Assembly: GCF_016613535.2 (NCBI RefSeq)
Contig: NZ_CP071518.1
Span: 3,658,001 to 3,722,000, forward strand
From: Lysobacter solisilvae
GTDB lineage: Bacteria > Pseudomonadota > Gammaproteobacteria > Xanthomonadales > Xanthomonadaceae
DNA: 64,000 nucleotides
Direction: 5' to 3'
In this document: one piece after another, positions 10,021 through 37,817 of the stretch
How the letters are laid out: each line of letters opens with the position of its first letter
Numbering within the stretch: position 1 is the first letter of the stretch
Notes under the pieces: model-generated
Databases searched by the model: none
The model's input: only the letters and a program-made list of their open reading frames with translations
Told to the model about the DNA's origin: nothing
Position numbers and translations under genes: made by a program

Positions 10021-12405
10021 TCAGAAGCTGGCCTTGAACTCCACGCCGACCGTGCGCGGCTCGTTGATGAAACCGGTCAGGTTGTTGAAGTCGATGCCAC
10101 CGACCACCTGCACCTCGTCGGTGATGTTGCGGCCGAACACGGCCACGTCGTACCGGCCCTGCCCCCAGTTGTAGCCCAGGCGCAGACCGCCCTCGACCAG
10201 CGACTTGCCGGTGAACTCGACCGAGTCGTACAGGAAGAAGTTGACCTCGCTCCGGTAGACCCAGTCGGTGAAGACGTAGAACTCGCCGCCGTCACCCACC
10301 GGCATGCCCCAGCGCAGGGTGAGGTTGTGGGTCCATTCCGGCGCCTGCGGCAGCGAGTTGCCGTCGATGTTGGCGCGCGCGGTCCAGTCCCCGGTCACCG
10401 GATCCTGCTCATACACGTGCGGATCGCGGATCGTGCAGTTGGCCTAGGGGTTGGGGAAGTTCTGGCCGGTGCCGCAGGCCGACACCACCAGGTCGGAATC
10501 CTTGATCTCCGTGTCGTTGTAGCTGCTGCCCAGGGTGAACAGCAGCGAGTCGGTCAGGTAGGCCTGGAAGTCCAGCTCGAAGCCCTGGCCCACGCTCTTG
10601 TCGGCATTGATCAGGATGTTGGCGTTGGCCGAGCCGCCCACGGCGGTGAGCTGCTGGTCCTTGACCTGGTAGTAGAACAGGCCCGCGTTGATGCGCGCGC
10701 GCTTGTCCCACAGGTCCGCCTTGACGCCCGCCTCGTAGGCGGTCGAAGTCTCGGGATCGGCGACCGACTTGCCATTGAAGGCGCCGGCGGCCTGGATGCT
10801 GCTGCCGCGATAGCCGGTGGCGACGCGCGCGTACAGGTTGACGTCGTCGTTGATCTCGTAGGTGCCCGACAGGTCCCAGCTGAACTTCTTGTCCTCGGGC
10901 GAGGCGGACAGGTCGCCGTCCGGCTCCTGTGCGGCCAGCTGCGTGATGTTGCACTTGGCCAGGTCGGGACGGCCGAACACGAACAGGTAGCGGATGCACG
11001 GGGCGAAGCCGTTGGCGAAGTATTCCTCGACGTTGAGGTCCTTCTTGTCCCACGTGTAGCGCGCGCCGGCACGCAGCTCGAGCCGGTCGGTCGCCTGCCA
11101 GGTCGCCGCACCGAACACGGCCCACGAGTCGTTGGTCTGGTTCACCCGCTCGTAGCCGTCCAGGGCACCGCCGTTGAGCGAGTCGTAGCTGAAGCTCTCG
11201 ACGTCGTAGTCCTCATTGAAATAGAACACGCCGGCCTGCCAGTTCCAGTCGCCGTCGAAGTTCGATTCCAGGCGAACTTCCTGGGTCCACTGCGAGTGCT
11301 CGGGGATGCCATCGGCGGTTTCCGAGGCGAAGGGAATCACGCCCGGGCCGGATACCGGGAGGAACACCGCGCCAAAGCCGCCGTCGATGTCGCCGCGGCT
11401 GTAGGTCTCGACCGACTCGTAGCCCGTGATGGAGTGCAGGCGGTACTGGCCGAAGTCCCACGTGAGGCGCGCGCTGGCGCCCTGGCTGTCGAGCTCGGAA
11501 TGGTTGTAGCCATCGACCGAGACTTCGTCCTCGTCGAAGCCGTCCACGAAGTCATTGGTGCCCGGCTTGATGATGTTGGCCCGGAACAGCCGCGCGGTGC
11601 CATTGAGGTGGCGCGCGTGCACGTTGAGCAGTGCTTCGAAGTTTTCGCCTTCGAACAGGGCCTGCACGCGCGCGGCCGCTTCGTCGTAGCCCTCGAAGCC
11701 ATCGTTCGGACCCGGATAGGTGTTCTTCACCCAGTCATCGCGGCGCTGGAACACGGCCGACGCGCGGCCGGACCAGCGATCGCCCAGTGGACCGCCGACG
11801 GCGCCTTCGACATTCCACATGTTGTCGCTGCCGAGGGCGACCTTGCCGTAGCCGCTGAGTTCCTGCGACGGCCGCACGGACTCGAACTTGACCACGCCGG
11901 CCGGGCTGTTGCGGCCGAACAGCGAGCCCTGCGGGCCGCGCAGCACTTCGACCTGGTCGACGTCGAACACCGGGAAGCCCTTGAGGATCGGGTTCTCCTG
12001 CACGACGTCGTCGTAGACCAGCGACACGGGCTGCGAGGTGTTGAGGCGGAAATCTGTGTTGCCGTAGCCGCGGATGTAGAAGCGCGGGAACGCGCGGCCG
12101 AACGACGACTCGATGTTGAGGCTGGGCACGCGACCGGAGAGGAACCGCACGTCGTTGCCGCCGGAGGCGAGCGCGTCGAGCTTCTCGCCGCTCACGGTGC
12201 TGACGGAAACCGGCACGTCCTGGATGTTCTCGACCTTGCGCTGGGCGGTCACCTGGACCGAGTCCAGGGTGGTCGCGGCCTTCTCCGCCGGGGCCTGGGC
12301 GGCGTCCTGTGCCGGGGCGTCCTGGGCGACGGCCAGCGGGGCGGCCAGCGACAGGGCGATCGAGACGGCGAGAAGGTGGCGACGGGCGTGGCGGTTGCGC
12401 GACAT
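10021..12405 (-). pseudogene. TonB-dependent receptor, interrupted by an in-frame TAG
   Basis: Outer-membrane beta-barrel receptor of 794 codons. A signal peptide (about 1-27, ending LAAPLAVAQD) is followed by a plug that begins TLDSVQVTAQRKVENIQDVPVSV and carries VEVLRGPQGSLFGRNSPAG. The barrel ends in a strand with terminal Phe (VGVEFKASF). Codon 654 is TAG (10444-10446). The same frame continues for 140 more residues of normal barrel sequence (NCTIRDPHVYEQDP ... GLRLGYNWGQGRYDVAVFGRN). As read, the product would lack its last strands and not fold. A single base change (TAC or CAG to TAG) explains it, either a true mutation or a base-call error. The substrate is unknown; the plug resembles the iron/vitamin/sugar receptors numerous in this family. 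Confidence 0.88.
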
Positions 12406-28766: not shown

Positions 28767-30194
28767 ATGCTCGCCAAGAAGTACCCCTACTACCTGGCCA
28801 ACCAGCCAGTGCAGGCCAATACCGACCTGGAAGTCCGCGACAAGTACACCGGCAGGATCGCCACGCGCGTCGCGCTCGCCGATGCCACCGCGGTGCGCAA
28901 GGCCATCGTGGCTGCGCACAAGGCCAGGGCGGCCATGGCCGCCTTCCCGCCCGATGCGCGCCGCGACGTGCTCGAGCACTGCGTGCGCCGATTCGGCGAG
29001 CGTGCGGAGGAGCTGGCCCAGGCGCTGTGCATCGAGGCCGGCAAACCCATCCGCGATTCCCGTGGCGAAGTCACCCGCCTGATCGACACCTTCCGCATCG
29101 CCGCCGGCGAGGCCACGCGCATCGGCGGTGAACTGATCGAGCTGCAGGTCTCGCCCCGCGCGCGCGGCTACCGGGGCATGGTCAAGCGCGTGCCGATCGG
29201 TGCGTGCAGCTTCATCACGCCGTTCAACTTCCCGCTCAACCTGGTGGCGCACAAGGTCGCCCCGGCGATCGCCGCCGGCTGCCCGTTCGTGCTCAAGCCC
29301 GCGGACAAGACGCCGGTGGGCGCGCTCATCATCGCGGAGATCCTGGCCGAGACCGACCTGCCGCGCGGCGCGTTCTCGGTGATGGTGTGCAGCACCGACG
29401 ACGCCGCGCAGCTGGTGCAGGACGAGCGGATCGCCCTGCTCAGCTTCACCGGCGGCATGGTCGGCTGGGACCTCAGGGCGCAGGCCGGACGCAAGAAGGT
29501 GACCCTCGAGCTGGGTGGCAACGCGGCCTGCATCGTCGATGCCGATCCCGGTGCGACGCTGGACCACGTCGTCGAACGGCTGGTGTTCGGCGCCTACTAC
29601 CAGAGCGGGCAGAGCTGCATCAGCGTGCAGCGCATCTACGCGCATCGCGACGTGTACGAACGGCTGCGCCGCAAGCTCAAGGCCGCCGTCGGCAAGCTGC
29701 GCATGGGCGATCCGCGTGACGAGAAGACCTTCATCGGCCCGATGGTCAACGAGGAATCAGCGCAGCGCGTGGAACAGTGGATCGCGCAGGCGCGCAAGGC
29801 CGGTGCGAAACTTCGTGCCGGTGGCGAGCGCCAGGGCAGCATGGTGCCAGCCACGCTGCTGGAAGACGTGCCCCACCACTGCGACCTCTACCGCAAGGAA
29901 GTCTTTGGTCCGGTCGCCGTGCTCGAGGCCTTCGACGATTTCGACGACGCTTTGGCGCGGGTCAACGACAGCGACTTCGGCATGCAGGCCGGTGTGTTCA
30001 TCGGCACGCTCGCCCACGCACTGCGCGCCTGGGATGTGCTCGAGGTCGGCGGCGTGATCGTCGGCGACGTGCCCAGCTTCCGCGTCGACAACATGCCCTA
30101 CGGCGGCGTGAAGAATTCCGGCGTGGGGCGCGAGGGCGTGCGCATGGCGATCGAGGACATGACCGAGCCCAGGCTGCTGGTCATCCGGGGCTGA
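28767..30194 (+). CDS. NAD(P)-dependent aldehyde dehydrogenase
   Basis: 475 aa. The catalytic Cys is C284 (QSGQSCISVQR) and the base E248 (TLELGGNAACIV). The N-terminus YPYYLANQPVQANTDLEVRDKYTG and the segment YKSxG-type NSGVGREGVRMAIEDMTE are like the lactaldehyde/glyceraldehyde-3-phosphate-like ALDH subgroup. The substrate is open. The start at 28767 was chosen because it has a perfect spacing to CAGGAGGG; the open frame to 28728 has none. Confidence 0.85.
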   Translation: MLAKKYPYYLANQPVQANTDLEVRDKYTGRIATRVALADATAVRKAIVAAHKARAAMAAFPPDARRDVLEHCVRRFGERAEELAQALCIEAGKPIRDSRGEVTRLIDTFRIAAGEATRIGGELIELQVSPRARGYRGMVKRVPIGACSFITPFNFPLNLVAHKVAPAIAAGCPFVLKPADKTPVGALIIAEILAETDLPRGAFSVMVCSTDDAAQLVQDERIALLSFTGGMVGWDLRAQAGRKKVTLELGGNAACIVDADPGATLDHVVERLVFGAYYQSGQSCISVQRIYAHRDVYERLRRKLKAAVGKLRMGDPRDEKTFIGPMVNEESAQRVEQWIAQARKAGAKLRAGGERQGSMVPATLLEDVPHHCDLYRKEVFGPVAVLEAFDDFDDALARVNDSDFGMQAGVFIGTLAHALRAWDVLEVGGVIVGDVPSFRVDNMPYGGVKNSGVGREGVRMAIEDMTEPRLLVIRG

Positions 30195-30284
30195 CCGGCG
30201 GGCGCGGCAAAAAAACTTCACGCCGGCCAACCCCGTTCGCGCGGGCGGCGCGTTTCCACAGGCAACCTGCCACGGAGACGCACC

Positions 30285-32225
30285 ATGCACCGCCTCGTCC
30301 GCCCGCACCGCCTCGCCCTCGCCCTAGCCCTGTCGCTGGCCGCCTGCAATACCACCCAGCCCGAGTTGTCCTCCGCCGACGACAAGGCCTCGGCCGAGGC
30401 CGGCACCGCCGACGAGGCGCGCCAGGCCGAGCGTGCGGCGCAAGCCGCCGCCATCAGCGCCGCCGACGCCGCCGCCGCGGTGGACGCGGCGCCCGCCGCC
30501 GCGTCTCCACGCACGGATGCCTACAAGCAGGCTTCCCAGCCGCGTCCGCGGGCCGAAGGGCTCATGGCACGACGCTCTGCATCCAGTGGAAACGTCGCCG
30601 GCCATGCCGTGGCACCGCCGCCGCCGGCACAGGTCGCGCAATTCGCGCCACCCCCGATGGAGGCCGAGGCCGCCGCGGAACTGGATGCAATCTCCGTCAC
30701 CGGCTCGCGCATCGACGAACCGGCGCTGAGGTACCTGCAGGCCGCCGCGCCGCAGTCACCGGCCAATACCGAGAAGTACGCGCACAAGGATGCCAATCCC
30801 GTCCATCGCACCAGTGAGCAGCCGGTGTCGACCTTCTCCATCGACGTGGACACCGGCAGCTACAGCAATGTGCGCCGCATGCTCGCGCAGGGTGTCCGCC
30901 CGCCCGCGGACGCCATCCGCACCGAGGAGTTCCTCAACTACTTCGACTACGGCCACCCCGGCCCCGCATCGCCCAGCACGCCGTTCCGCGTGACCACGCA
31001 GCTGGCGTCCGCACCGTGGAACAGCCAGCGCCAGCTGCTGATGGTGGGCATCAAGGGATACGACGTGCCCAAGGCCACGCTGCCGCCGGCCAACCTGGTG
31101 TTCCTGCTCGACACCTCCGGCTCCATGCAGGACGAGGACAAGCTGCCGCTGGTCAAGGCCTCGCTGCGCCAGCTGGTGAACCAGCTGCGTCCGCAGGACC
31201 GCGTGTCGATCGTGGTCTATGCGGGATCCGCGGGCCTGGTGCTGCCGCCGACATCCGGCGAAGACAAGGACGCGATCCTGGGGGCGCTCGATCGCCTGGA
31301 AGCCGGCGGCAGCACCAACGGCGGCGACGGCATCCGTCTGGCGTACGCGATGGCGCGGCAGGCCTTCGTCGAGGGCGGCGTCAACCGCGTGATCCTGGCC
31401 ACCGACGGTGATTTCAATGTCGGGACCATCGACCAGAACGCGCTGGAGACGCTGGTGGCCGACCAGCGCAAGACCGGCATCGCACTGACCACGCTGGGCT
31501 TCGGCCAGGGCAACTACAACGACCAGCTCGCCGAGCGGCTGGCCGATGTCGGCGACGGCAACCACGCCTACATCGATACCGAGCGCGAGGCCCGAAAGGT
31601 GCTGGTCGAGGAGATGGGTTCCACGCTCATGACCATCGCCCGCGACGTCAAGATCCAGATCGAGTTCAACCCGGCGGTGGTGGCCGAATACCGGCTGATC
31701 GGCTACGAGAACCGGCTGCTCAACCGCGAGGACTTCGCCAACGACAAGGTCGATGCCGGCGACATCGGCGCCGGGCATGAAGTGACCGCGCTGTACGAGC
31801 TCACGCCCGTCGACTCCGGCGCGCCCCGGCTGTCCCCGCTGCGTTATGGCGGCACGGCGGTGGCGTCGAAGGACGCGTCGACCAAAGCCGAAGTCGCGCA
31901 CCTGCGCCTGCGTTACAAGCGCCCGGGCGAGGGCAGCAGCCGCCTGATCGAAACGCCGGTCCTGCGCTCGCAGCTCACCGCCACGCCGGGACCCTCCTTG
32001 CGCTTCGCCAGCGCGGTGGCGGCCTTCGCCGATGCGCTGCGCGGCGGCACGAACATCGGCACCTAGGACTGGACGCGCATTCGCGCCGAGGTGAAGCAGA
32101 CGCTCGGCGAGGACCGCTGGGGCCAGCGCGCCGAACTGCTCGGCCTGATCGACCAGGCCGACCACCTGATCGCGACGCCCGACAGGGCGACCGCCCAGGG
32201 TCAGCGAATGACGGTGGGCCCCTGA
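30285..32225 (+). pseudogene. VWA-domain lipoprotein (YfbK-like), in-frame TAG near the 3' end
   Basis: Lipoprotein signal with LSLAAC (lipid-bearing Cys21), a Pro/Ala-rich disordered region (about 25-150), then a von Willebrand-type N-terminal domain (TFSIDVDTGSYSNVRRML), a VWA domain with intact MIDAS (DTSGSMQ; later ATDGDFN) and a C-terminal DUF3520-type domain. The exact string ELDAISVTGSRI lies in the disordered part at residues 132-143 and recurs in the anti-sigma-like protein at 36175. Codon 594 (32064-32066) is TAG where homologues have Tyr-Asp/Trp. The frame continues 53 codons (DWTRIRAEVKQTLGEDRWGQ...) to TGA at 32223-32225, just before a terminator. Probably one gene with a base error or mutation. 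Function unknown; VWA lipoproteins often act in envelope assembly or adhesion. Confidence 0.85.
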
Positions 32226-32260
32226 CTGCTGGCGGACCAAGGCAACGTCCTGCCTGGCGA

Positions 32261-32293
32261 CCTCTTCCCGCGGCGTGCGGGAAGAGGTTTTTT
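32261..32293 (+). terminator. Rho-independent terminator of the VWA gene
   Basis: 11-bp perfect stem CCTCTTCCCGC/GCGGGAAGAGG, loop GGCGT, then TTTTTT. It starts 35 bases past the TGA at 32223-32225 and so supports that stop as the original gene end. Confidence 0.92.
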
Positions 32294-32389
32294 GTTGGAG
32301 TTCGTCGCTGGGTGACGTTCCGGCCGGGCTGCGGACGCGGGACGCGGGGACCAGGAATGCATGCGTGGGCTACAGGCCCCGCGAAACCC

Positions 32390-35306
32390 TCAGAGCCGCG
32401 ACGGCGCCAGCGGCATCAGCTGCGCCATCGGGCGGCCGAACAGGAAGCCCTGCCCCATCTGGCAGCCGAGCTCGCGCAACAGCACGCGCTGCGCTTCGCT
32501 CTCGATGCCCTCGCCGATCGTGTGGATGCCCAGCGAACCGGCCAGGGCCTGGATGGCGCGGACCACGGCCATGCTTTCCGGGCGCGTGTCACCGACCAGG
32601 CCGGCGACGAAGCTCTGGTCGATCTTCAGGCATTCCAGCGGGAAGCGATGCAGGTAGCTCAGCGCGGAGAACCCGGTGCCGAAGTCGTCCAGCTGGGCCA
32701 GCACGCCGTTGCTGCGCAGCGTGCGCAGCATGCGCAGCGCGCGCGCGGTGTCGTCGAGCAGCGCCCCTTCGGTGATCTCGATGCGCAGCTTGTGTGGATC
32801 GGCGCCAGCCTGGTCGATCAGCCGCAGCAGGCGGTCGGCGAAATCGGCCGAGAGGAAATGGCGCGGCGAGACATTGACCGAGATGTAGCCCCGAGTTTTC
32901 CTTCGCAAGCCGCTGGGCGACCTGCTGGTACATGATCCAGTCGACCTCTTCGATCAGCCCGCTGTCCTCGCCCAGGCCGATGAACTCGCCGGGCGTGAGC
33001 AGGCCGCGGCGTTCATGGCGCCAGCGCAGCAGGGCTTCGTGGCCGATGACCTGGCGGTCGCTCAGGCGCACGATCGGCTGGTAGAAGGCGACGAATCCCT
33101 CGCCGTTGATGGAGCGGCGCAGGTCGGCTTCCAGGTCGAGGATGCGCATGGCTTCCTCGCGCATGGCCTCGTCGAACACCGCCGAGCTGCTGCGGCCGGC
33201 GGCCTTGGCGCGGTACATCGCGGCATCGGCGTCGCGCAGGAGTTCGGCGCCGTTCTGGTAGCGCGGGTGCCACATCGCGATGCCCACGCTGGCCGACGGG
33301 AACACCTCGCGGCCGGCGACCCAGAAGGGTTCGTTGAGCGAGAGCAGCACGCGGCGCGCGAGGTCCTCGACGATGCCCAGCCCGTCGATGTCGGTGATCA
33401 GGATCGCGAACTCGTCGCCGCCCAGCCGCGCGACCGTGTCGCCGCCGCGCACGGTGGCCACGATGCGGCGCCCGGCTTCGATCAGCAGTTCGTCGCCGGC
33501 CGAGTGGCCGACGCTGTCGTTGACGAGCTTGAAGCGGTCCAGGTCGAGGAACAGCACGGCGAAATGCCGCGCGCCCGGGCCCTGTGCCGGATCGGACTGC
33601 GCGCGGGTGATCGCCGCGGCCAGCCGTTCGAGCAGCTGGGTGCGGTTGGGCAGTCCGGTCAGCGCGTCGTGGCGCGCCTGGTAGGTGAGCTGCTGCTCGG
33701 CGCGCAGGCGTTCACCGATCTGCGAGAGCAGTTCGGCGTTGGCCTCGGCCAGCTCGCGCGTGCGCGAGGTCACGCGCTGCTCGAGCTCGCCGTGGGCCAC
33801 CAGCAGGCGGTCCTGCGCCTGCTTGCGCACCAGGCCGATGCCGATGTGGTGGGCGACGAAGGTGAGCAGTTCCTGGTCGCGCGAGGTGAAGGCGATGGCG
33901 GGCGAATAGCTCTGCACGGCGATCACGCCGACCACGATCTCCTCGCGGAACAGCGGCACGCCCAGCCAGCAATGCGACAGGGTGCCCAGGCTGCGCACCT
34001 TGCCTTCCTCCTCCAGCCGCTGGATGAAGGGACGGTCGGCAAGCAGCGCGTGGCCTTCGCGGATGACGTACTCGGTCAGGCCGGCGGCGAACTGGCGGGT
34101 GTGGCGGGTGACGTCGCGTTCGTCGATCGAGTACGGGAAGTGGATCATCCGCCCGTCTTCGGAGACCAGGGCGATGTAGAAGTTGCGGGCGTAGAGCAGC
34201 TCGCCGACCACGTCGTGGACCTGCGCGTAGAAGCGCTCCAGCGTCTCGGAGGTGATCGACAGCTCGGCGATGCGGAACAGCGCGCGCTGCAGCCGCTCGG
34301 CGCGCTGGCGTTCGATGATCTCGGCCTGCAGGTCGCGGTTGCTGTGCTGCAGGGCGCGGGTGCGTTCCTCGACCCGGCGTTCGAGTTCCTCGCGCGCCTG
34401 GCGGCGGTCGAGCGCGGTGAGGATGTGCTGGGCGACGTAACTGAGCAGCGCACGCTCATCGTCGCGGTAGACGCCGGGGCGGTCGTAGCTCTGCACCACG
34501 ATGGCGCCGCAGACGCGGTCCTCGCGGCGCATGGGCACGCCCAGCCAGTCCTCGCTGTCCGGGCCGTGCTGCGGATCGATCACCACGCCGAAGGATTCGC
34601 GCAGCTGGGACGAGGGCCCGCGCAGCGGTTCGCCGTGGCGCAGGAGGGCGACGGTCATGCTGTTGGGCATGTCCGAGGCGACCGTCTCCACCGAGGGATC
34701 GGCCACGTAGGGGTCGCGCCGGTCGGCGAAGTACAGGAAGCGCAGCGTGTCGCGCTGGTCGTCGTAGAGGACGATGTAGAAGTTCTCGGCGTACATCAGG
34801 CCGGCGACGATGGCGTGGATGCGGCGGAGCATGTCCGCCATTTCCAGGTCCGAGCCGGCCAGGTCGGCGATCTCGTACAGGGCCTGCTGCAGGCGTTCGG
34901 ATTTTTCCAGCTGTTCGGCGCGGGCGCGGGCCTGGGCGGCGGTCAGGTGCGCATCGACCAGCATCTGCGCCATAGACAGCCAGCCGCGGCGCGCGGACGC
35001 CGGCAACGATTCGGGCAGGTCGGCCAGGACCACGGCGCGACTGCTGTCCTCCCCGTCCCAGACCAGCGCCAGCAGGCGCGGGTCGTCCTTGGGCGGATTG
35101 CCGGTGGCCATCATCTGCTCGGCCAGCTGGGTCATCCGCGGCGAAACGTTGCCGGTGAGGGAGAAGCCGGGCAGGCCGGAGCCGTCGCGCCAGCGCACGA
35201 GAACCTGGGCGCCGGGCTGCAGTCCTTCCTGCAGCGCGCCTGCCAGCGCGTCTCCAAAAGCCTCGGACGTGTCCGAAGGCATCGACATCGTGCCCAACCG
35301 TTGCAC
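32390..35306 (-). pseudogene. multi-GAF GGDEF-EAL cyclic-di-GMP enzyme, frameshifted in EAL
   Basis: About 970 codons, paralogue of the gene at 5862-8891, with the same layout: sensory N-terminus, GAF modules (IADLAGSDLEMADMLRRIHAIV; then IAELSITSETLERFYAQ), GGDEF and EAL. The GGDEF site RLGGDEFAIL (near residue 629) has the I-site RGGD five residues upstream, and EAL reads GHEALLRWRHE. The frame shifts inside EAL at 32889-32892, a CCCC run on the plus strand. Removing one C joins AKENSG to YISVNVSPRHFLS, and the remainder (DDFGTGFSALSYLH, to the stop at 32390) is intact. A base-call error is the simplest view. The start is 35306, or MSMPSD at 35288. Confidence 0.87.
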
Positions 35307-35610
35307 CGGAACTTCAGCCTCCCCCTGACCGTGCCCTGAGCATAACGCGCCCCGGGGGGCCCGATGCCAACCCCGCCGGCCCAGCCCGACCGTTCATCCA
35401 GTCATGGAACTGGTTGCTCGATTTGATGGATGCTCCGATTGGCCGCCGGCCCGCGACCCCGACCGTTGCGGGCCGATGGGCTGGGGCTGGCCGCCACCTG
35501 CCCCGGAGGGCTCCACGGCCGGCGGCCGGGCGGTCGCGGCGGTGTCCACGGTGGCCAGGAGCGAAGCCGACCGCTTCCCGCCGCCGGCCGCAGCCCGTAC
35601 GCTGCCGCGC
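35307..35610. other. divergent region between GGDEF-EAL and ECF sigma genes
   Basis: No gene. A GGAAC at 35406-35410 resembles an ECF -35 element but lacks a matching -10 at 16-17 bases, so no autoregulatory promoter can be claimed. Confidence 0.35.
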
Positions 35611-36165
35611 ATGAATCCGGGCGCGGACGCCAATGACGACCTGCTGATGCTTGCCTGGGCAGGCGGGGACGTGGCCGCGTTCGAGATCCTGTACGCGCGC
35701 CACCGCGGGCCGCTGTACCGGTTCCTGCTGCGGCAGCTGCGCAACCAGGCGCTGGCCGACGAATTCTTCCAGGATGTGTGGCAGCGTGTGATCGCCGCGC
35801 GCGAAAACTGGAAGCCCGATGCGGCTTTCTCGACCTGGCTGTTCAGGATCGCCCACAACCGCCTGAACGATCATTGGCGCGCGGCGAAGCATCGCCCTGC
35901 CGCGCCGGACGATGGCGACGAGCGCGCCGCGCGCGTGCCGGACCCGTCCACGCCCGAACGCGAGCTGTCGCAGTTCGAACAACGCCGGCGCCTGCAACTC
36001 GCGCTGGAGGAATTGCCTGAGGAGCAGCGCGAGGTCCTGCTGCTGCGCCTGGAACAGGAACTGAGCCTGGAGGAGATCGGCGCCATCACCGGCGTCGGCC
36101 GCGAAACCGTCAAGTCGCGCCTGCGCTACGCGATGGACAAGCTGCGATCGAGATTGAACGAGTGA
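35611..36165 (+). CDS. ECF-type RNA polymerase sigma factor
   Basis: 184 aa. The region 2 segment is FQDVWQRVIAARENW followed by FSTWLFRIAHNRLNDHWR (-10 recognition). The region 4 helix-turn-helix is LEELPEEQREVLLLRL then LSLEEIGAITGVGRETVKSRL (-35 recognition). Regions 1.1 and 3 are absent, as in ECF factors. The start MNPGADANDDLLML at 35611 fits; a longer open frame to 35404 is not sigma-like. It is followed 9 bases later by a membrane protein that is probably its anti-sigma partner. Distinct from the RpoE at 60500. Confidence 0.9.
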   Translation: MNPGADANDDLLMLAWAGGDVAAFEILYARHRGPLYRFLLRQLRNQALADEFFQDVWQRVIAARENWKPDAAFSTWLFRIAHNRLNDHWRAAKHRPAAPDDGDERAARVPDPSTPERELSQFEQRRRLQLALEELPEEQREVLLLRLEQELSLEEIGAITGVGRETVKSRLRYAMDKLRSRLNE

Positions 36166-36174
36166 CCGCCGGAC

Positions 36175-37236
36175 ATGACTAGCCACGACCCCCGCGAACC
36201 GCTGGACGCCGACGAGCGCGAGCTTGCCGGGCGCCTGTCGCGCCTGGGACCGGTCGACGGCCCCTCGCCCGCCCTGGACGCCCGCATCCTCGCCGCCGCG
36301 CATGCCGCTGCCGCGACCCGCACCCGTCCGGCGCGCCGCCGCTGGGCGGCCTGGGCCGTGCCGCCGGCGGCCATCACCGGCGTCGGCGTGGCCGCGGCCT
36401 GCGTGCTCGCCCTGGGCGTGGTCTGGCAGATGCGGCCGCGCGTCTCGATGGCGCCGGTTGCCGCCGAATCGACCGAGGAGGTCTTCATTGCCGCCGAACC
36501 GGCCGGCTCGCGCGCGCCGGTCGACAACCCGCCGCCATTCGAAGCCGCCGCCGATGCCGCGACCGCCGCCGCGCCGCCGCAGCCGCAGGCGCGCGCCCGT
36601 GCTGGTGACGAATACGCGCAGGCCAAGGCCGCGACGGAGGCCGCCCCGGCGGTTGCGCAGGAAAGCGATGCGGCGGCGGCTCCCTTCGCCGTCGCGCCAT
36701 CGGGGTCGGCTGCCGCTGCGGCGCCGTCCTACGAGGGCTTCAGCGGCAATGCCGCGGCGAACGCCCGCGCCGACAAGGCCCTGGCCGACGACGCAGCCGC
36801 CAGCACCGGCGCGGCCGCGGCCGTCGAAGAGGCGGCCCGCCAGGAACGCCGCGCCACCTACACCTCAGCGGCGCGTGCCACCGCCGAGCGGGGGCTGCGA
36901 GCGCCCCCGGCCGCGCAGGCCGCGCCTCCCGCCGCGCCCGCGCCCGCGCCGGCGCGGGAGGCCGCTGCGTTCCCGCAGGACGAAGCAGAGGCTCCGACCG
37001 AGCTGGATGCGATCTCGGTCACCGGCAGCCGCATCGCGGCGCCTGATCTGGCGGCCATTCCCGCCCGCGACGACGCCCGCCTGAAGCGCGAAGACTGGCT
37101 CGATCGCATCCGCGCGCGCCGCGACGCCGGCGACCGGGTTGCCGCGCGCGAGAGCCTGCGCCTGTTCCGCCGCGCCTATCCGCAGGTGCGCCTGCCCGAG
37201 GACCTGCGCAGCCTGGCGACCGACGCCGCGCCATGA
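36175..37236 (+). CDS. single-pass membrane protein, probable anti-sigma factor
   Basis: 353 aa. The short acidic N-terminus (about 1-55, cytoplasmic; PREPLDADERELAGRLSRL) and one transmembrane helix (about 58-84) are followed by a long Ala/Pro-rich periplasmic part and a charged C-terminal helix pair (DDARLKREDWLDRIRARRDAGDRVAARESLRLFRRAYPQ). There is no zinc-finger HxxxCxxC. Place and topology suggest the partner of the sigma factor 9 bases upstream, but that is inference. Residues 276-287 are ELDAISVTGSRI, identical to the VWA lipoprotein at 30285, with four synonymous codon differences of twelve. Its stop overlaps the yigZ start (ATGA). Confidence 0.72.
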   Translation: MTSHDPREPLDADERELAGRLSRLGPVDGPSPALDARILAAAHAAAATRTRPARRRWAAWAVPPAAITGVGVAAACVLALGVVWQMRPRVSMAPVAAESTEEVFIAAEPAGSRAPVDNPPPFEAAADAATAAAPPQPQARARAGDEYAQAKAATEAAPAVAQESDAAAAPFAVAPSGSAAAAAPSYEGFSGNAAANARADKALADDAAASTGAAAAVEEAARQERRATYTSAARATAERGLRAPPAAQAAPPAAPAPAPAREAAAFPQDEAEAPTELDAISVTGSRIAAPDLAAIPARDDARLKREDWLDRIRARRDAGDRVAARESLRLFRRAYPQVRLPEDLRSLATDAAP

Positions 37237-37817
37237 CCGACACGCTCGCGGCGCCCGTGGCGCACGAGCTGGAGGTGAAGCACAGCCGCTTCATCGTCCA
37301 TGCCGCGCCGGCGCCCTCGCCGGAAACCGCACTGGCCTGGCTGGCGCAGGTAAGCGATGCCGCCGCCACGCACAACTGCTGGGCGTACCGCATCGGCGGG
37401 CAATACCGTTTCAGCGACGACGGCGAACCGGCCGGCACCGCGGGCCGGCCGATCCTGGCCGCGATCGACGGCCAGGGTTTCGACCAGGTCGCCGCCGTGG
37501 TCACGCGCTGGTACGGCGGCATCAAGCTCGGCGCCGGCGGCCTGGTGCGCGCCTACGGTGGTTCGGTCGCCGAATGCCTGCGCCTGGCGCCGCGGCAGCC
37601 GTTGATCGCGTGGAGCGAACTGGCCGTGGCCTATCCGTTCGACGCGACCGGTGCCGTGCATGCCGCGCTTGCGCAGTTTGGCGCGGAAAAGCGCGGCGAG
37701 GACTTCCAGCCGGACGGCGTGGTGACGCGCCTGCGCCTGCCGTCCGATCGCGTGGACGCCTTGAAAACCCAGCTGCGCGACGCCACCCGTGACCGGGTGC
37801 GCTGGCCCGACGGCTGA
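37233..37817 (+). CDS. YigZ/IMPACT (UPF0029) family protein
   Basis: 194 aa. The N-terminal domain is typical of the family: KHSRFIVHAAPAPSPETAL, HNCWAYRIGGQYRFSDDGEPAGTAGRPIL and VTRWYGGIKLGAGGLVRAYG. The C-terminal ferredoxin-like domain (DUF1949) carries ATGAVHAALAQFG. The family is linked to translation control (IMPACT in eukaryotes); its biochemical role in bacteria is unclear. It starts inside the stop of the probable anti-sigma gene (ATGA), so it belongs to the sigma-factor operon. Confidence 0.9.
   Translation: MTDTLAAPVAHELEVKHSRFIVHAAPAPSPETALAWLAQVSDAAATHNCWAYRIGGQYRFSDDGEPAGTAGRPILAAIDGQGFDQVAAVVTRWYGGIKLGAGGLVRAYGGSVAECLRLAPRQPLIAWSELAVAYPFDATGAVHAALAQFGAEKRGEDFQPDGVVTRLRLPSDRVDALKTQLRDATRDRVRWPDG

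Follow-up and report, generated by a model that had tools for sequence, protein, structure and literature searches.

A TonB-box peptide shared by a YfbK-family VWA lipoprotein and an anti-sigma-like protein in Lysobacter solisilvae

The DNA analysed here is a stretch of 64,000 nucleotides from Lysobacter solisilvae (NZ_CP071518.1, positions 3,658,001 to 3,722,000), called the window below, which sits in a single-contig genome of 3.93 Mb. In this window, a YfbK-family VWA lipoprotein and an anti-sigma-like protein encoded behind an extracytoplasmic function (ECF) sigma factor contain the same 12-residue peptide, ELDAISVTGSRI. Judged from its sequence the peptide is a TonB box; it derives from the N-termini of TonB-dependent receptors and looks retained. 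The features concerned are as follows.

30285..32066, + strand: YfbK-family VWA lipoprotein, 593 residues to an in-frame TAG, with Pfam matches to vWF_A, VWA and YfbK_C and the lipobox LAAC.
30678..30713, + strand: peptide ELDAISVTGSRI in the disordered linker of the VWA lipoprotein, assigned as a TonB box by the consensus tLDXVXV (PMC1790865).
32390..35306, - strand: GAF-GGDEF-EAL gene in two frames, between the VWA and sigma genes, a neighbour not considered a member of the module.
35611..36165, + strand: ECF sigma factor (probable start 35611; the listed open reading frame begins at 35404), NF009166.
36175..37236, + strand: anti-sigma-like protein, starting nine bases after the ECF sigma gene.
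37000..37035, + strand: peptide ELDAISVTGSRI shortly before the C-terminal helical domain of the anti-sigma-like protein.
12238..12267, - strand: TonB box TLDSVQVTAQR of the TonB-dependent receptor of the window, for comparison.

The sigma factor matched NF009166 with an expectation value (E) of 2.3e-74, the match beginning at residue 74 of the listed frame. The anti-sigma-like protein has the layout of class I anti-sigma factors, with a short cytosolic N-terminus, a single transmembrane helix (from hydropathy only) and a gene directly after that of the sigma factor. Its short N-terminal helices and one hydrophobic helix are followed by a long disordered linker and a C-terminal helical domain with the pattern WLxRIRxRxxxGDxxxARxSLxxFxxxYPxxxxPxDL. 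No receptor gene was found from the VWA gene to the gene after the anti-sigma gene (GGDEF-EAL, sigma, anti-sigma, UPF0029), and the receptor noted in the window lies near 12.2 kb.

The initial annotation had reported the identical peptide at VWA residues 132-143 and anti-sigma-like residues 276-287, where it was found again, and 16 of the 18 positions of the longer string EAEAxxELDAISVTGSRI are common to both proteins. It had also counted four synonymous differences among the 12 codons; this count was reproduced, the remaining eight codons being identical, while the codon usage of seven window genes gives an expected agreement of 6.8 ± 1.6 of 12. A fresh duplication of the peptide was rejected, since the codon agreement (8/12) was no better than this expectation. 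As to the further claim that the peptide was selected rather than freshly copied, the DNA has no sign of a recent copy, with little power in 12 codons, and the peptide looks retained.

Both copies had been described as lying in disordered parts of proteins lacking a plug or barrel, and indeed no Pfam plug or barrel match was obtained for either protein. In the AlphaFold2 models, the VWA copy was inside the low-confidence stretch 66-144 (28-sequence alignment), and the anti-sigma copy was at the edge of the low-confidence stretch 247-279, preceding the confident C-terminal helical domain. When the VWA model was used to search for similar folds, VWA folds of a general kind came back. The lipobox of the VWA protein and the hydrophobic helix of the anti-sigma-like protein would place the peptide on the periplasmic side.

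All receptors of Xanthomonas campestris studied by Blanvillain et al. (2007, PMC1790865) share the TonB-box consensus tLDXVXV, and receptors in the L. solisilvae genome bear such boxes (TLDTVTVTGSRIKK, ELDAIQVTGSRI). The window peptide agrees with the local receptor form L-D-x-[VI]-x-V. Because it fits the Xanthomonas consensus and because receptors of its own genome carry like boxes, it is assigned by sequence to the TonB-box kind. A DNA pattern for L[DE]x[VIM]xVT[GA] was found at 15 places in this genome, and translation of these places gave receptor N-termini (e.g. TLDTVTVTGSRIKKADLETQ, ELDAIQVTGSRI), the VWA and anti-sigma-like genes and several seemingly unrelated frames. A looser DNA pattern gave 38 places versus 53 in the reversed control and was uninformative. 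A receptor-wide motif profile was abandoned, since the box was detected by rule in only 22 of 38 receptor loci and the best Plug matches favour one receptor type. A comparison of box presence with the number of receptors was given up as well, the Plug counts being capped at 29 scored candidates.

VWA homologues were found in 70 of 149 genomes of the bacterial family, including that of the window. For comparison, 80 stretches were used. Each of the 69 other genomes supplied one, and a single genome among them supplied another; ten further stretches came from other families of the order. With the window included, the family loci number 71. Seven loci were not counted for VWA, since no linker was recognised in four and no lipobox in the other three; for one of the four, the stretch covered the anti-sigma region instead. 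The pattern L[DE]x[VI]xV occurred in 33 of 64 VWA linkers, versus a mean of 0.14 expected from 1000 shuffles, none of which reached the observed value. Of 51 anti-sigma frames, 29 had the pattern within their final 260 residues, versus 0.44 expected from shuffles. Without four unfit frames (three cut by contig ends and one encoding a beta-propeller protein, none with the pattern there), the latter count becomes 29 of 47. At least one positive was present in 16 of 26 genera for VWA and in 14 of 24 for anti-sigma, and the C-terminal domain pattern of the anti-sigma-like protein was kept in all 47 usable family frames.

In the 71 family loci, 56 of 5741 frames (at least 100 residues) carried a ten-residue version of the motif, namely 27 VWA, 27 scored anti-sigma and two other frames. 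On inspection, one of the two others proved to be the N-terminal part of a VWA gene that is split; a beta-propeller protein accounted for the second and for one of the 27 scored as anti-sigma. Since nearly all of these frames were VWA or anti-sigma, a chance origin of the motif placement is excluded. The beta-propeller protein (L189:4585-6657 and L166:5209-7287, both on the - strand; PF09826, from a Pfam run on L189) carries TTLDRI[QE]VTGSR and is a third non-receptor protein kind with a TonB box; two genomes of one genus have its gene at a distance of about 6 kb from an extra VWA copy. No relatives of the VWA family were found in viral contigs.

The motif was conserved well above its surroundings, with identities of 0.54-0.77 in the motif columns versus 0.10-0.26 in the flanks. 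Within a genus, the 12 motif columns reached 0.58 (VWA) and 0.77 (anti-sigma) versus 0.16-0.26 for the 15 residues on either side; some columns are fixed by the search pattern, but the L, S and R that it leaves free were conserved too. The distance from lipobox to motif ranged from 17 to 112 residues in the VWA linkers. The peptide thus behaves as a short linear docking motif, with a conserved core, unalignable flanks and a variable position, in agreement with the docking tag proposed in the initial annotation; that proposal had left the partner unnamed. Because the peptide is a TonB box by its sequence, the TonB C-terminal domain is likely to be this partner and is the obvious one.

The VWA, sigma and anti-sigma genes were found together in 49 of 71 family loci, always on the same strand. 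Their order was VWA-sigma-anti-sigma, in some cases with a further gene inserted, or else sigma-VWA-anti-sigma; eight loci had an incomplete set of another kind, which in one case was due to the choice of stretch. Over the 44 loci with both proteins, 21 had the box in both, 13 in neither and 10 in one (Fisher p 6e-4, uncorrected for phylogeny), and after removal of the unfit frames the 40 loci gave 21, 10 and 9 (p 0.002, likewise uncorrected). The paired boxes of one genome were identical at 8.24 of 12 positions on average versus 7.12 after permutation (0 of 20000 permutations), and at the genus level, with one locus per genus in nine genera, the value for within-genome likeness was 0.0018. 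The perfect pair of the window is the extreme of this trend, equalled by one other of the 21 pairs. Co-conservation of the motif in relatives had been proposed as a check, and both the presence and the letters of the box were found to co-vary within genomes. A shared partner or old gene conversion would each account for the within-genome trend.

Outside the family, a scan of a genome collection was evaluated for the best 80 of 585 relatives, of which 75 had readable linkers. The loose pattern occurred in 15 of these 75, and 14 were TonB-box-like by eye; the titled bearers among the 14 were sphingomonads, relatives of Caulobacter and Hyphomonas, and otherwise unplaced alphaproteobacteria or proteobacteria. 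Sphingomonads and the relatives of Caulobacter and Hyphomonas are rich in receptors. The sphingomonad genes are ordered sigma-VWA-anti-sigma, and a receptor-like start was seen by eye in the VWA linkers of six of six loci, one of them degenerate. The gene after VWA, with the anti-sigma layout, contained one or two boxes in all five complete loci (the sixth was cut), several of them with a plug-like tail by eye, and tetratricopeptide repeats were confirmed by Pfam in the one such protein tested. In a phylum-wide draw, the vWF_A domain was present in 46 of 200 genomes; 30 loci were read, six linkers were unreadable, and besides that of the window the box was found in three of 23 readable linkers (L217 and L231, and L223 by eye). 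In the L223 linker, a stretch of 49 residues shares 52% identity with an annotated receptor from Novosphingobium (E 2e-3); altogether the stretch matched seven records, of which two have a receptor annotation. No match came from a receptor search with the linker of Sphingomonas naasensis, and NCBIfam profiles run on five linker segments gave weak receptor matches in two (TIGR01785, E 0.012 and 0.011) and a chance-like one in a third.

In the Bacteroidota, the VWA protein of Bacteroides finegoldii has a SusC/RagA N-terminus (NCBIfam TIGR04056, E 1.2e-27, profile positions 1-106), and so does its anti-sigma-like protein (TIGR04056, E 1.3e-29, profile positions 3-95); on these proteins this N-terminus consists of a carboxypeptidase-like domain and a TonB box. 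The anti-sigma-like gene stands behind a sigma gene about 2.5 kb from the VWA gene, on the opposite strand. A Bernardetia VWA protein has the same N-terminus (E 3.1e-25, profile positions 1-87), and its match stops shortly beyond LEEVVVTGY, by a few residues. In B. theta, function depends on the SusC box VDEVVV (DEVVVTG in the structure; PMC7782687). Among the receptor matches was a control genome, that of Bacteroides ihuae, which was absent from the vWF_A matches. The Bacteroides anti-sigma-like protein (L316:1303-2436, - strand) combines the SusC N-terminus with a weak TonB_C match, and stretches similar to it occur in a Segatella protein annotated as energy transducer TonB and a Parabacteroides M56 metallopeptidase. 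The record NZ_OY725907.1 (L363), named plasmid 5, bears annotations for zapA, dinB, ribonuclease Y and lipid synthesis and may be a chromosomal piece.

Because of the longer sphingomonad copies and the SusC N-termini on both Bacteroides proteins, the peptide is traced to receptor N-termini. In these sequences the VWA/anti-sigma pairing recurs in three lineages, and the receptor type is that of the lineage concerned. An independent convergence on a V-T-G-rich beta strand serving another use, such as a protease site, would fit the fact that most members of the window family share just six to twelve residues, but the SusC N-termini on both Bacteroides proteins (E of about 1e-27 and 1e-29) and the receptor-like stretch of L223 show a common origin with receptors, and we regard convergence as highly improbable.

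A fused receptor remnant had been named in the initial annotation as the finding that would overturn its proposal. The receptor N-terminal origin was indeed found, whereas a dead remnant does not agree with a TonB box kept in both proteins in a lineage-specific form. In a related explanation, recombination of disordered Ala/Pro-rich linkers with receptor N-termini would drop pieces in, and the peptide would be a functionless, decaying by-product. The longer receptor-like tails are variably decayed, the box is missing from many orthologues, and gene conversion could explain the likeness of the copies within a genome. Yet the pieces were retained down to the TonB box in both partners, the motif was confined among the 5741 frames to VWA, anti-sigma and one beta-propeller family, codon agreement did not exceed the codon-usage level, and in Bacteroides the pairing is repeated with a structurally different receptor N-terminus. 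A mere by-product is therefore judged distinctly unlikely.

That TonB binds the box on both proteins with a regulatory role is, from these sequence comparisons, the reading we hold to be somewhat probable. The TonB C-terminal domain accepts a receptor box as an added beta strand, and proton-motive force is passed on to an outer-membrane protein by the Ton complex (PMC9249621). We infer that the same domain would grip the boxes of the VWA lipoprotein and the anti-sigma-like protein by beta-strand addition, as it does on receptors. The two proteins would then be rivals of the receptors for access to the energised Ton motor. Tension on the linker of the anti-sigma-like protein, or its loss whenever TonB is taken up by receptors, might alter how this protein holds its sigma factor or is cut by proteases, so that sigma activity would follow the force on the linker or its occupancy. 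The VWA lipoprotein would act as the envelope partner that sets the response, and in this way transcription would be informed of the condition of the Ton system. Such an effect of the box on sigma signalling is a suggestion drawn from sequence. More tentatively, and with considerable doubt, energised TonB might pull the boxes of both proteins such that proton-motive force and receptor traffic are read as transcription with no receptor in the signalling chain, an arrangement that would have arisen several times as lineages grafted their own receptor N-termini onto these two proteins.

The docking strand could also be receptor-derived with a partner other than TonB, for example an STN-like periplasmic domain or a domain of the partner protein, which would join VWA, anti-sigma and receptors. 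The signalling domain of FpvA binds the TonB box of its own receptor (PMC9249621), and the C-terminus of the Bacteroides anti-sigma-like protein gave a weak TonB_C match (E 7.8e-5, 23.5 bits, cut-off 24.6) and a TIGR01352 match (E 0.015), so that it could take the VWA box directly. On the other side, the model of the window anti-sigma-like protein has a helical C-terminal domain, whose pattern is conserved, and in the model of the VWA protein the peptide lies undocked in a low-confidence stretch. We consider a partner other than TonB rather unlikely.

Several observations weigh against a regulatory binding of TonB to both boxes. The window peptide misses the strict form LDxVxV, with I for the first V, as does the receptor box ELDAIQVTGSRI, and only 15 of the 64 VWA linkers in the family and 8 of the 51 anti-sigma frames had the strict form. 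Absence of the motif from orthologues had been foreseen as a decisive objection, and this objection was half borne out: of the 64 VWA linkers 31 did not have the six-residue pattern, nor did 18 of the 47 usable anti-sigma frames, and the rest kept it. The VWA gene stood alone, with neither partner found, in 14 of 71 family loci, and only two of ten loci from other families of the order had a box. No box was accepted in the rhizobial VWA proteins (many loci among the best 80 of 585 relatives), and none was seen by eye in E. coli YfbK (a plasmid record) or in a Vibrio plasmid VWA protein with a sigma neighbour; because these homologues lack it, the box is not needed for the basic function of YfbK. 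Nine longer linker segments gave no match to Pfam Plug, although in two of these the closing few letters were not read from sequence output. The Bacteroidota sample comprised two VWA proteins, chromosomes being outside its scope, and in Bernardetia no sigma gene was annotated within 6 kb of the VWA gene. The anti-sigma-like protein had no Pfam or NCBIfam match, so no anti-sigma domain was recognised by profile; its identity is based on position, layout and a weak N-terminal pattern, and its AlphaFold2 model was built from a single sequence. An hhalign comparison of its N-terminus with those of fused alphaproteobacterial VWA proteins was not significant (E 0.17). Fused rhizobial VWA proteins, with sigma directly upstream in Azotobacter, had been tried as a sigma-anchored Rosetta stone and were rejected, since the N-terminal profile comparison was not significant. 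Finally, the L. solisilvae genome has 13 TonB_C matches (E 0.01), so that there are several candidates for the partner TonB. The genome also has 13 Plug matches (E 1e-5), so that TonB-like domains are about as many as receptors.

With respect to the neighbourhood, the VWA domain set of the YfbK family was present, YfbK_C covering 146 of 184 positions owing to the stop. The in-frame TAG lies at 32064-32066, after which the same frame resumes with sequence resembling the ends of related VWA proteins. Because of this stop, the readable frame beyond it and the incomplete YfbK_C, the window VWA copy is considered truncated or mis-sequenced. A stop within the VWA match was also present in six other family genomes. 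In the GAF-GGDEF-EAL gene the frame change falls inside EAL, and these two broken neighbours within 5 kb may reflect sequencing errors or decay. The UPF0029-family gene (37233-37817, + strand) shares four bases (ATGA) with the stop of the anti-sigma gene, which suggests translational coupling. A scan of 30100-37400 detected no sigma-70-type promoter and was uninformative on ECF promoters.

TonB is viewed as an import motor that grips receptors and, if hijacked, bacteriocins. If the regulatory reading is true, TonB would be a direct input to gene control through resident regulatory proteins bearing its handle. The widespread and little-studied YfbK/VWA lipoproteins would gain a place in the cell, and their frequent adjacency to ECF sigma genes would be explained. 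A regulatory client would also be one possible use for the 13 TonB_C matches of the genome.

Compared with known systems, the boxes of TonB-dependent receptors (tLDXVXV; DEVVVTG in SusC) have like residues, a flexible periplasmic position and lineage-specific letters, whereas the box carriers described here have no plug or barrel match. The FecA-FecR-FecI, FpvA and FoxA-FoxR signalling systems likewise involve an ECF sigma factor, a membrane anti-sigma factor and the Ton system (PMC9249621, PMC11637429). In such cell-surface signalling, however, the TonB box is on the outer-membrane transducer, while here it is on the anti-sigma-like protein and the VWA lipoprotein, and FecR-type loci contain a receptor gene that is missing between the VWA gene and the gene after the anti-sigma gene. 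B-group colicins and klebicin C carry a TonB box on non-receptors, as here (PMC11658791), but they are imported bacteriocins, whereas the VWA and anti-sigma-like proteins are resident proteins encoded beside a sigma gene. The Dma anti-sigma factors of Bacteroides share the transmembrane helix and the long disordered tether and, unlike the window protein, end in a C-terminal beta-barrel (PMC13088901). In a word search, the main text of that paper contained no mention of a carboxypeptidase domain, of VWA or of a plug, and TonB appeared a single time, in its introduction. Searches of the open literature, which left most subscription papers outside, found no TonB box on an anti-sigma or VWA/YfbK protein, in line with the remark in the initial annotation that no description of the system was known to it. 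In PMC12204202, the vWA fold of TonB/TolA-like force transducers is compared with YfbK and tied to Ton/Tol-type motors. This idea of vWA proteins as force transducers appears to be the nearest one published, yet it is different: those proteins bear a motor-binding helix, whereas the VWA lipoprotein here bears a box that a TonB would pull.

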